A stretch of DNA of 40,761 nt, taken from Candidatus Methanoperedens sp. GTDB lineage: Archaea > Halobacteriota > Methanosarcinia > Methanosarcinales > Methanoperedenaceae. Of this stretch, positions 36,598 through 40,761 are shown in pieces. The notes beneath the pieces were generated by a model, which searched no databases, had not been told where the DNA came from, and was given only the letters and a program-made list of their open reading frames with translations. The stretch is taken from contig JAPMTX010000150.1 of assembly GCA_026552855.1 (NCBI GenBank), forward strand, positions 1-40,761, given 5' to 3'. How positions within the stretch are numbered: the stretch's first letter is position 1; each line of letters begins with the position of its first letter. Made by a program: the position numbers and the translations under genes.

Positions 36598-38487
36598 TCA
36601 TTCCCGTTCCTTTATCAGCTCTTCGATCACAGACTGGTTCTCAATATCAGAGAGATTGCCGAGCCTGTCTATATCACCAGAAGCGATTTTTTTTAGTACC
36701 CTCCTTGCTATCCCGTCCGGTATTGCTCTGGGGAGCGCATCCGCGAACTGTATCTTCTCCGGCACTGCTATCGGACCTGATGTACTCCGCACACGGTCTC
36801 CCAGTTCATCCTTAAGCGCACTGCTCCTGCTCACTCCTTCTTTAAGCACAACAAAAACGTATATCGATTCTCCCTTTATCTTATGCGGGTACCCGACAAC
36901 CACAGCCTCAGCCACCGCATGATGTGACAGGAGTGCGCCCTCTATCTCTGCTGTCCCAAGCCTGTACCCGGAGACCTTGATCACCTCATCAGTCCGTCCG
37001 GTTATCCAGAAATAACCATCCTCATCCCTCCGGGCATTATCGCCTGTATAGTATATACCTGGAAAACGCTCGAAGTACATCTCCTTAAAACTTGAATGGT
37101 CCCTATATATCGTCCTCATCATTCCAGGCCAGGGTTTTTTGATCACAAGCATCCCCTCTTCGTTGACATCAGCCTCTGTCCCGTCGGGTTTCAGGACTGC
37201 GGGCTCTATTCCGGGAAAAGGGAACGCGACAGAGCCCGGCTTAAGAGGTACGGCGCCGGGAAGAGGAGCGATAAGTATGCCTCCAGCCTCGGTTTGCGAC
37301 CAGGTGTCCACAACAGGGCATCTCCTGTTCCCCACTGTGTTATAGTACCACATCCAGTCTTCAGGTCCTATCGGTCCGCCTCCTGTACCTAGGAGGCGGA
37401 GGCTTGACAGGTCTCTTGCCTTCGGCAGATCATCGCCCCATCTCTCAAGCGCCCTGATAATGGTTGGGGTGGTGTAAAGGGTCGTGACCCTGTACTCTTC
37501 TATCAATTCCCAGAACCGGTCGGGCTCAGGATAAGTTGGTGCGCCCTCGTACATGAGAATGGTCGCCCCGCATGCCAGGGGTCCATATACCGTGTAGCTG
37601 TGCCCTATTATCCAGCCGCAGTCCTCGGTGCACCAGTAGATGTCCCCATCGCGGTGATCGAATACCCATTTAAAAGTCTGCATCACATAAAGCAGATATC
37701 CGCCCGTGGTATGCAGCATACCGACCGGCTCACCAGTTCTTCCGCCCGCGTACAGTATGAACAACGGGTCCTCTGCGTCCATTATTTCGGATTCGCATTC
37801 CTGTGATGCGTCCTCTTCCTGCCATATGGAATCCCTGCCCTCTTTCATCGTAATTGATACGTTCGCGCGGTCGTATACTATCATGCTCTCAACTGTACTG
37901 TCGAGCGCGCGATCGACATTTTCTTTAACCGGTATTGTCTTACCGCCCCTCAGGGTGGAATCAGCAGTAATTACCATTTTGCATGAGCTATCCTGGATAC
38001 GGTAGCGTATGGAATCCGCGCTAAAGCCTGTAAAAATCACATTATGGACCGCGCCTATCCTCGCGCATGCAAGCATAGCAATAACGAGCTGCGGTACCAT
38101 GGGCATGTATATCGCAACCCTATCTCCTTTCCTGATGCCTTTTCCTTTCAGGACGTTCGCGAATTTACATACCTCACGGTGAAGCTGCCTGTAGGTGTAA
38201 CTTTCTGTATCCCCTATCTCGTTCTCCCACAGGATCGCAATTCTGTCGCCACGTGCCTGGAGATGACTGTCAAGGCAGTTGTAAGCAGCGTTCAGTTTCC
38301 CGCCTTCAAACCACATGCATATTGCGTTCTCCTTGTCCCAGGAATAGGTATTGTCCCACCCCTTGAACCAGATAAGCTCTTCTGCCTTCTCTGCCCAGAA
38401 GGATGGGGGGTCTCTGACGGAGTTTTCGTATATCTGCCCGTATTCTTCGCGACTTTTTATATCCACTTCGTTCCACCCTCCAATCAT
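36598..38487 (-). CDS. Acetyl-CoA synthetase paralogue with degenerate catalytic motifs
   Basis: A 629-residue AMP-forming acyl-CoA synthetase fold from the ATG at 38487 (the frame is open 30 codons more). The whole Acs length is kept: FKGWDNTYSWD, GDRVAIYMPMVPQLVIAMLACARIGAVHNVIF-type core, HSYTVYGPLACGATI, TGRTDEVIKVSGYRLGTAEIEGAL. Key motifs are changed. The P-loop TSGSTGKPKG reads AGGRTGEPVG (247-256). GEPI reads GGPI. TWWQTETGG reads TWSQTEAGG (395-403). The catalytic and acetylatable lysine in RSGK is Ile593 (PDGI). It is therefore unlikely to make acetyl-AMP; a binding or regulatory role is inferred. It heads the unit acs-like, uspA, P-type ATPase. Confidence 0.88.
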   Translation of the reverse strand: MIGGWNEVDIKSREEYGQIYENSVRDPPSFWAEKAEELIWFKGWDNTYSWDKENAICMWFEGGKLNAAYNCLDSHLQARGDRIAILWENEIGDTESYTYRQLHREVCKFANVLKGKGIRKGDRVAIYMPMVPQLVIAMLACARIGAVHNVIFTGFSADSIRYRIQDSSCKMVITADSTLRGGKTIPVKENVDRALDSTVESMIVYDRANVSITMKEGRDSIWQEEDASQECESEIMDAEDPLFILYAGGRTGEPVGMLHTTGGYLLYVMQTFKWVFDHRDGDIYWCTEDCGWIIGHSYTVYGPLACGATILMYEGAPTYPEPDRFWELIEEYRVTTLYTTPTIIRALERWGDDLPKARDLSSLRLLGTGGGPIGPEDWMWYYNTVGNRRCPVVDTWSQTEAGGILIAPLPGAVPLKPGSVAFPFPGIEPAVLKPDGTEADVNEEGMLVIKKPWPGMMRTIYRDHSSFKEMYFERFPGIYYTGDNARRDEDGYFWITGRTDEVIKVSGYRLGTAEIEGALLSHHAVAEAVVVGYPHKIKGESIYVFVVLKEGVSRSSALKDELGDRVRSTSGPIAVPEKIQFADALPRAIPDGIARRVLKKIASGDIDRLGNLSDIENQSVIEELIKERE

Positions 38488-38558
38488 AAATCTATCGTTA
38501 TCCTTAAAATAGGTGATGGAACCCCGGAAAGCTTTATAAAATGGCAGGGTACAATTCA
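38488..38558. promoter_or_regulatory. Divergent promoters, both apparently leaderless
   Basis: Plus strand: tttataaa (38533-38540), centred 23 bases ahead of the ATG at 38559. Minus strand: tattttaag (38503-38511), about 20 bases ahead of the ATG at 38487. The 71-bp gap is enough for both and supports the shorter starts chosen for the two genes. Confidence 0.55.
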
Positions 38559-38729
38559 ATGAGTGATATCGTGGCAAAAAATGATTCCTGTACAGCCCTT
38601 ATCTGCACCCGCTGCGAGTTCTTCAAGGAAGACGACATAGAGCTTGAGTGCGCCGCGTTCAAAGCCCTAAAGAGCATGCTCCGGAAAGGCATAATCACGC
38701 CGGAAGAGATAAAAGATGCCCTCGGTTGA
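38559..38729 (+). CDS. Small Cys-containing protein, possible radical SAM substrate or partner
   Basis: A 56-residue protein. The ATG at 38559 is chosen because a TATA box ends at 38540, so an in-frame ATG at 38541 could not be transcribed. Four Cys: 11, 16, 19 and 31, in SCTALICTRCEFF and ELECAAFKALKSML. The C-terminal third is a plain helix pair (RKGIITPEEIKDALG). It overlaps the radical SAM gene by 14 bp, so the two are translated together. Two readings are possible: a precursor peptide modified by the enzyme, or a small zinc/Fe-S partner protein. It has no clear leader/core split. Confidence 0.7.
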   Translation: MSDIVAKNDSCTALICTRCEFFKEDDIELECAAFKALKSMLRKGIITPEEIKDALG

Positions 38730-39906
38730 GTTTTTCCCGGTGCTGGCTTCTGGTTTTGTTCTCCGGAGGCTTGAGAGCCCGTATGTTTATAACACGGCTG
38801 AAGACCAGTTGTATGAACTGGACGAAGAAGCGTTCTCTTTCCTGAAGAGATGCAACGGTATTGCCCCATTCTCGAAGCTGGTCCTGGATGCCGGGGAGGA
38901 TAGCCGTGAATCTATAGAATATATGCTCAATGAAGGGATTATCTATCTTCAGGAAGCAGCCGGGAGAAGAAGGATCAAAGCCGCGCGTTCGCCTGTCCCA
39001 TCCCTTCGTTACCTTTTATTGAATATCACGAACAGGTGCAACCTAAAATGCAGGCACTGCTATCTCGGAGAATCCGGCAATAAAGAGATAGGTGCAGGAT
39101 CATTTGAGAGAACGGTCTTACAGTTTGAGGATATGGGGGGACTGAAGCTTTTGATCTCAGGCGGAGAACCGCTAATGCATTCGAAGTTCTGGGAGTTAAT
39201 GGATGTCCTGCCTTCCTGTGAGATGAGGGTTGTGGTTCTATCAAACGGGACGCTGATAGGTGAAGATGAAGCAAAAAAACTGGCTCGGTACGCGGACGAG
39301 GTACAAATCAGCATTGACGGCATCAGATCGCATGACCTTTTACGCGGAAAAGGTTCGTACGATAGAGCTATGCGCGGAATTTCCGCGCTTCAGGACTGCG
39401 GCATACCAGTCTCTATCGCCACCATGGTGCACAGGTACAATACCGGGGAGTTTCCAGGGATGCAGGAGCTTTTTTCTGACCTCGGCGTCCTTTCGTGGAG
39501 CGTGGGTGTGCCATGCGCGGTCGGGAACATGAGGGCGAACATGGACTTTACCCTGCCCCCTGAGGAAGCGGCATCCTTCCTGGGATACGGTTTCGGCGCA
39601 GGAGCGCATGAGAGCACCGGGGATTACACCTGCGGCTCGCATATGTGCTCCGTATCCCCTGATGGAGCTGTCAGTAAGTGCGGTTTCTTTGAGGATGAGC
39701 CTGTGGGGAGTGCAAATGACCTCAGGGCAGCGTGGACAAAGCTCTGCAGGGATTACCTGTGGGACATTGGCGAGCTTGAATGCCATGGTTGTGAGGTAGT
39801 CCATGAATGCAGGGGAGGATGCAGGTTCAGGGCAAAACAATATGGGGGGATGCTGGCTCCGGACCCGCTGTTATGCCACGCAAACGGTGTCACGTCATTT
39901 CTATGA
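38716..39906 (+). CDS. Radical SAM/SPASM protein with PqqD-like N-terminal domain
   Basis: A 396-residue enzyme. Residues 8-80 (SGFVLRRLESPYVYNTAEDQ, LDEEAFSFLKRCNG, ESIEYMLNEGIIYL) look like a PqqD-type peptide-recognition domain. The radical SAM core has C108-x3-C112-x2-C115 (CNLKCRHC), GGEPLMH and VVLSNGTLI. A SPASM domain at about 300-390 carries further Cys: CGSHMCSVSPDGAVSKCGFF and CHGCEVVHECRGGCRF. Such architecture is typical of enzymes that modify ribosomally made peptides, though haem d1/AhbC-like and cofactor-modifying relatives also have SPASM. The overlapping small Cys gene upstream is the natural candidate substrate. Confidence 0.88.
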   Translation: MPSVEFFPVLASGFVLRRLESPYVYNTAEDQLYELDEEAFSFLKRCNGIAPFSKLVLDAGEDSRESIEYMLNEGIIYLQEAAGRRRIKAARSPVPSLRYLLLNITNRCNLKCRHCYLGESGNKEIGAGSFERTVLQFEDMGGLKLLISGGEPLMHSKFWELMDVLPSCEMRVVVLSNGTLIGEDEAKKLARYADEVQISIDGIRSHDLLRGKGSYDRAMRGISALQDCGIPVSIATMVHRYNTGEFPGMQELFSDLGVLSWSVGVPCAVGNMRANMDFTLPPEEAASFLGYGFGAGAHESTGDYTCGSHMCSVSPDGAVSKCGFFEDEPVGSANDLRAAWTKLCRDYLWDIGELECHGCEVVHECRGGCRFRAKQYGGMLAPDPLLCHANGVTSFL

Positions 39907-40582: not shown

Positions 40583-40761
40583 TCATTCAATCAGCTCCGC
40601 CACGAAAACACACTCCTCAGCACCCTCAAGAGCACAATCCGCCTTCTTGCAGTAGTAGCGGTTATCGAGATGCTTTCTGGCTACCCCCCCAAAAAACCCT
40701 CGCAGGATGTCGCAGTACGCGCATTTTTTCCCTTTCAAGGGCAGACCTTTGACTCTGAAGG
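40583..40761 (-). CDS. Partial gene: C-terminus of a V4R-like Cys-rich protein
   Basis: The minus-strand frame is open from the window edge to a TGA at 40585-40583, giving about 58 residues. The end contains KKCAYCDILRGFFGGVAR, then YYCKKADCALEGAEECVFVAEL. This resembles the C-terminal part of V4R (4-vinyl reductase) domains, where a Cys, a 'GllaGll' helix and a final C-x-GxxxC-F strand bind ligand or zinc. Five Cys are visible. The N-terminus lies outside the window. It lies 67 bp upstream of the 204-residue hypothetical gene. Confidence 0.55.
   Translation of the reverse strand, partial: FRVKGLPLKGKKCAYCDILRGFFGGVARKHLDNRYYCKKADCALEGAEECVFVAELIE

Follow-up and report, generated by a model that had tools for sequence, protein, structure and literature searches.

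Near the end of the 40,761-nucleotide stretch of DNA analysed here (hereafter the window), which comes from a methane-oxidising archaeon, Candidatus Methanoperedens sp., is an uncharacterised two-gene unit specifying an oxygen-sensitive radical enzyme and a tiny cysteine protein. As the same pair is present in many archaea and bacteria, sometimes in fused form, our best reading is that this is a conserved system for modification within the cell, not a gene cluster for an antibiotic peptide. Enzymes with a RiPP recognition element (RRE) and a radical SAM domain are usually interpreted as natural-product maturases; the pair suggests for them a possible housekeeping role too, in the maturation of proteins or the handling of metals. 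No prior description of it was found in the literature searched, to which most subscription papers did not belong, and no curated family in Pfam or NCBIfam names either protein. What does the enzyme do with its small partner? The answer that we favour, with confidence close to even, is that it modifies the small Cys domain once this has docked, and that the resulting metal- or thiol-active protein remains intracellular.

Both reading frames given in the preliminary description are borne out (Table 1), as are the 14 bp (38716-38729) that the 3′ end of the small gene shares with the start of the enzyme gene. An overlap of this length is found in most Methanoperedens loci. The small protein had further been described as having 56 residues and as being expressed from its own leaderless promoter. 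A TATA-like sequence does exist and implies a transcription start near 38559-38563, and in several relatives a comparable box is 70-78 nt 5′ of the codon for the first invariant Cys. Translation from an ATG at 38559, in the same frame, would give the 56-aa alternative. However, the window's two nearest relatives (L009 and L010) lack that ATG and have nearby only a GTG equivalent to the one at 38571, while in most other relatives the start is 36-39 nt before the first invariant Cys. For these reasons the protein is probably one of 52 aa that starts at GTG 38571, with a short leader. Leaderless use of the ATG, to which conservation gives no backing, was set aside as doubtful. Divergent from the pair, with a short common upstream region, is an acetate-CoA ligase gene (36598-38577, − strand) that is not a recurrent neighbour in related loci. 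A partial gene at the window edge (40583-40759, − strand) has a product similar to the V4R domain of MsvR, a redox regulator of methanogens, the matches to Pfam V4R (E 4e-7) and to NCBIfam MsvR both being under cut-off.

Table 1. Positions of the pair and its parts in the window, and of recurrent neighbouring genes in related loci
Feature	Position or loci	Strand	Basis or remark
Putative TATA-box-like element TTTATAAAA	38533..38541	+	Sequence, upstream of pair
Small Cys-domain protein, conserved start GTG 38571, 52 aa	38571..38729	+	Homologue comparison
RRE-radical SAM-SPASM enzyme, 396 aa (1,191 bp)	38716..39906	+	ORF, Pfam, AlphaFold2, Foldseek
Predicted RRE (PqqD-like winged helix-turn-helix), enzyme residues 14-72	38755..38931	+	AlphaFold2, bbb-aaa order
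Radical SAM cluster motif C108-NLK-C112-RH-C115 (CX3CX2C)	39037..39060	+	Pfam Radical_SAM, 58-sequence invariance
SPASM domain, seven-Cys ligand set	39631..39876	+	Invariant columns, SPASM/Twitch fold matches
Cupin-like gene	L120:7159-7500, L141:5062-5406, L112:3302-3643, L123:5257-6003, L381:6195-6557, >20 more		
cutA next to small gene	L303-L306, L308-L311		hisD nearby
beta-CASP/RMMBL gene before enzyme	L313, L314, L316, L318, L321		PF10996 and PF07521 tested for L316

Is the N-terminal segment of the enzyme really PqqD-like, as had been proposed for residues 8-80? A strict definition of an RRE is three strands followed by three helices (PMC12710340), and in the AlphaFold2 model (alignment of 58 sequences; mean pLDDT 94.1, pTM 0.92) there are strands at residues 14-18, 22-26 and 31-34, then helices at 37-45, 52-59 and 61-72, so that by this definition the segment is predicted to be a true RRE. 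The order of radical SAM and then SPASM that had been read from the sequence holds also. The enzyme matches Pfam Radical_SAM with an E of 7e-23, and its CX3CX2C motif is unchanged throughout 58 archaeal and bacterial sequences; in the same set all seven SPASM Cys residues (C306, C322, C356, C359, C365, C369 and C387) are invariant, and the Pfam SPASM model gives no score. Over nearly the whole chain the closest PDB folds found with Foldseek are those of SkfB (6efn), SuiB (5v1t) and CteB (5why), with TigE (8vpo) lower. A genuine RRE-rSAM-SPASM architecture is thus supported by the structural model, though family membership is another matter. The enzyme passes the Pfam gathering score solely for the broad Radical_SAM and Fer4_12 models and is under the cut-off of every listed NCBIfam model. 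Among its best-scoring curated models are those of the rSAM/SPASM proteins ScmE (TIGR04250), ACGX (TIGR04340) and GeoRSP (TIGR04303), but even the best of these, ScmE, gives 110.5 bits against a cut-off of 400, with only the radical SAM core aligned; mycofactocin and PQQ rSAM models are also among the sub-threshold scores.

In 28 order-level sequences the invariant residues of the small protein are Cys16, Cys19, Phe21, Glu30 and Cys31 (56-aa numbering), a set that shrinks to Cys16, Cys19, Phe21 and Cys31 in 25 single-domain homologues from several phyla. Of the four cysteines considered earlier, three therefore keep their standing, but Cys11, found in just 3 of the 28, is ruled out as a functional residue. 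The architecture is C-x2-C-x-F, a later C and then a SHOCT-like helical segment, SHOCT models matching the C-terminal half with scores under their cut-offs and no Pfam or NCBIfam family reaching cut-off for the protein. There is no separable leader and Cys core, the minimal homologues of ~46 aa being entirely conserved domain, and, unlike a variable RiPP core, the small protein is conserved to roughly the level of its enzyme.

In Halobacteriota (Methanoperedens and Archaeoglobi), Desulfobacterota and Nitrospirota the two proteins are almost always found in the same genomes. At order level the small protein is in 30 genomes and enzyme matches at E<1e-30 are in 33, four of which were excluded as distant (28-32% identity) members of another family; the enzyme adjoins the small gene wherever the contig allows, which is more than chance. 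In a sample of 393 Halobacteriota genomes, 24 have the small protein (E<1e-10), always with the enzyme adjacent, and 25 the enzyme, the odd one having a partial enzyme at a contig end with no match to the small protein; 24 have both. Among 138 Nitrospirota genomes the small protein is in 49, the enzyme in 50 and both in 47 (Fisher p 1e-30, relatedness ignored), and there only 18 of the 47 pairs are within 1 kb. The other 29 are unlinked, 7 being farther apart on the same contig (by up to 1.2 Mb) and 22 on different contigs. Twenty-six of 247 Desulfobacterota genomes have the enzyme; profile A6 detects the small domain in 20 of these, and the six that it missed have an adjacent single-domain copy (G663 being locus L097). 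Loci are also present in Asgard archaea and Actinomycetota. The lineage of the enzyme thus spans archaeal and bacterial phyla, with many anaerobes, and its Cys-domain partner has been co-inherited even where unlinked. Neither a curiosity of one genus nor a speciality of methane-cycling archaea is involved.

The preliminary description had staked its case on the small protein not being widespread without the enzyme, and it rarely occurs alone: the small domain lacks a close enzyme in two Nitrospirota and in five Desulfobacterota genomes, the latter perhaps of one lineage, and a sixth Desulfobacterota case (G633) is the broken remnant of a fused gene. The five (L247, L250, L253, L255 and L257, of G767, G699, G723, G746 and G544) specify a seven-Cys protein, beside whose gene there is, where read, an RluD-like gene and, in two, a serA-like gene. 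All five have an RRE-rSAM match elsewhere in the genome, QhpD-like where read, which is perhaps a one-lineage coincidence, and a frame upstream at L301 reads, as judged by eye, like the alpha subunit of QHNDH. From by-eye reading rather than a family model, these QhpD-like enzymes are probably a different system.

In archaea one three-Cys domain is specified upstream of the enzyme (downstream in Helarchaeota). Bacteria often have a two-domain seven-Cys protein, with C-x3-C-x12-C and then C-x2-C-x5/6-C...PCGG, whose gene is upstream of that of the enzyme in Desulfobacteria and divergent from it in Nitrospirota; Actinomycetota and some other bacteria have the single-domain form. The three-Cys domain is homologous to domain 1 of the seven-Cys form (hhalign 97.3%, E 2.6e-11). 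In eight MAGs, several of Desulfobacterota among them, the small domain, whose seven invariant Cys are arranged as 3+4, is fused to the N-terminus of the enzyme (L102, L107, L117, L120, L121, L126, L128 and L141). An AlphaFold model of a fused protein (pLDDT 90, pTM 0.90), for which alignment A8 was used as the free small proteins were misaligned in A7, has helical Cys domains that lead straight into the RRE. On the enzyme tree, where archaeal and bacterial enzymes form separate groups (SH-aLRT 95), the fused proteins represent two state changes: either fusion arose twice, or it arose once and was lost once. The fused Desulfobacterota proteins are single-chain constructs for direct tests of docking and modification.

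In the flanks examined, no gene other than that of the small protein was found to be conserved beside the enzyme across phyla, and neither an exporter nor a protease is a recurrent neighbour of the pair, in keeping with the earlier remark that none was adjacent. The idea of a larger operon was dropped, the flanks being without conservation across phyla and a downstream 204-aa gene recurring in Methanoperedens loci only. Within bacteria a recurrent companion is a cupin-like protein of ~113 aa that has a His-rich tail and in which THACY and GHEE motifs are conserved; its gene is next to or near that of the enzyme in >20 Desulfobacterota loci and overlaps the small gene in two of Nitrospirota (L112 and L381). 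In one Nitrospirota lineage it is fused in-frame to the small protein (L123 and L364, of identical sequence). Its Cys31-Tyr32 and His53-Glu54-Glu55 are invariant, it is sub-threshold for Pfam Cupin_2 and it belongs to no curated family. Of 14 Nitrospirota genomes having the pair, 9 have the cupin as well, against 0 of 12 genomes lacking the pair (p 6e-4, relatedness ignored). The cupin is also in 4 of 7 Methanoperedens genomes tested, where it is divergent and unlinked; it is absent from the window's own genome and from the Archaeoglobi tested. Ten Nitrospirota loci with an unlinked small gene were examined, and in 8, all of one lineage, cutA (PF03091) is directly upstream of, or overlaps, the gene for the seven-Cys small protein. 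In four lineages ZIP-like transporters are specified close to the pair or to the small gene, and one lineage has, divergent from the pair, genes for a Fur-like regulator and a ZnuA-like protein. Together with the cupin these neighbours are a pointer to divalent metals, with the ZIP and Fur cases being few and cutA confined to one lineage. The single Fur case is L327:10411-12258 of Desulfobacterota G568, where what the pair diverges from is a Fur/Zur-like regulator and the gene of a ZnuA-like zinc-binding lipoprotein, labels that come from sequence reading and phmmer only. For the enzyme itself, 5 of 10 unlinked Nitrospirota loci examined have its gene directly after one for a beta-CASP/RMMBL metallo-hydrolase.

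How might such a pair work? The two genes would be a self-sufficient protein-modification unit, with the small protein, a compact Cys-x2-Cys...Cys domain, docking on the RRE of the enzyme. Docking would be in cis for fused proteins and in trans in archaea. SAM would be cleaved at the C108/C112/C115 cluster, and the docked Cys domain would be modified with the help of two SPASM clusters, a Cys-based crosslink being the simplest outcome. Neither cleaved nor exported, the product would be an intracellular folded protein, probably one that binds divalent metal or Fe-S; in many bacteria it may work with the His-tailed cupin, and in one lineage its gene is directly after cutA. As the enzyme has an RRE, the small protein is its expected ligand, and that the best folds are those of RRE maturases that act on a co-encoded peptide was counted for modification of the small protein, as were the family-wide co-occurrence, the fusions and the homology of the three-Cys domain to domain 1 of the seven-Cys form. 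Conservation without leader, protease or exporter, and the fusions, speak for a resident protein and against release of a peptide, and the presence of the small gene beside cutA or the cupin gene when away from the enzyme fits a client with a function of its own. A working analogy may be QhpD, whose client, the small subunit QhpC, is modified within a stable complex of the two and in a single turnover (PMC7876137), so that fusion of a client to the enzyme acting on it is not absurd. Alike in the two cases are an rSAM enzyme and a small Cys protein that remains cellular. However, QhpC carries a leader of 28 residues, comes with a protease, QhpE, and has a known home in quinohemoprotein amine dehydrogenase, whose gamma-subunit it is. 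No such leader is on the small protein, and no QHNDH subunit or QhpE is beside the pair in the ORFs of the window or recurs in the flanks examined.

Against modification of the small protein are this want of a leader-like conserved N-terminus, the lack of an invariant acceptor residue besides Cys and one Phe, the seven genomes noted above (five Desulfobacterota, two Nitrospirota) that have the small protein without a close enzyme, and the absence of the cupin from the Archaeoglobi tested and from the window's own genome. Moreover, the 3- and 4-Cys patterns resemble metal sites, and an overlap of 14 bp is suggestive of subunits in a 1:1 ratio. Each of these fits equally well a close rival: that the small protein is unmodified and acts as an accessory subunit, binding Zn or Fe-S and holding, reducing or presenting the true substrate. 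We regard this as quite plausible, if less probable than modification. The position of the small domain N-terminal to the enzyme in the fusions, with seven invariant Cys as 3+4, is in its favour, overlapping genes are compatible with coupled 1:1 translation, and a protein about as conserved as its enzyme and without leader/core organisation is what a subunit would be. Yet RREs normally bind the peptide that is modified (PMC12710340, PMC6231123), and a pure subunit would not predict either that an unlinked small gene adjoins cutA or the cupin gene or that a few genomes retain the small protein without the enzyme. The fallback of the preliminary description, a product acting inside the cell or a metal-binding partner, fits better than the sactipeptide or ranthipeptide layout with which it led.

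That layout, in which a leader-bearing precursor acquires a thioether-linked core and is then cleaved and exported, now appears very improbable. It drew on a small Cys protein being adjacent to an enzyme whose RRE-rSAM-SPASM fold is closest to those of SkfB, SuiB and CteB, and the domain order (RRE-radical SAM-SPASM/Twitch), the top Foldseek matches and the co-encoded small protein are indeed shared with these systems. However, in structural alignment the enzyme is only ~15-21% identical to theirs, and its partner is a Cys domain without leader or core, with no exporter or protease beside it, that in eight MAGs is part of the enzyme chain and elsewhere of the cupin. Conservation across phyla rather than patchiness, and Cys11 not being conserved, also tell against it, and the lack of a recurrent protease or exporter in the flanks examined itself makes a classical secreted product unlikely. 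We give equally little credence to the enzyme making a peptide-derived redox cofactor, of the PQQ or mycofactocin kind, from the small protein as precursor. The pair is conserved in anaerobic respirers and, like PqqD/PqqE and the mycofactocin rSAM maturases, has PqqD-like and SPASM domains and is not patchy, and the models for such maturases are among the sub-threshold NCBIfam scores. But the enzyme is far under those cut-offs, other genes of the pathways are not seen beside the pair, no peptidase or later-step enzyme recurs in the flanks examined, the Cys domain is duplicated in tandem, and fused forms would not permit easy release of a cofactor. A wider and more doubtful proposal, put forward tentatively, is of an undescribed system, conserved widely in both archaea and bacteria, whose rSAM enzyme constructs a metal- or thiol-active site post-translationally on a small Cys protein resident in the cell, in cis when fused, with the His-tailed cupin as partner in many bacteria. 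If this is true, RiPP chemistry would have a counterpart that is intracellular and handles metals.

In Borrarchaeum a tandem three-Cys small protein is specified ~20 kb from the enzyme (L193:1240-1668), and directly downstream of its gene is that of a ZIP metal transporter (PF02535; L193:1698-2468).
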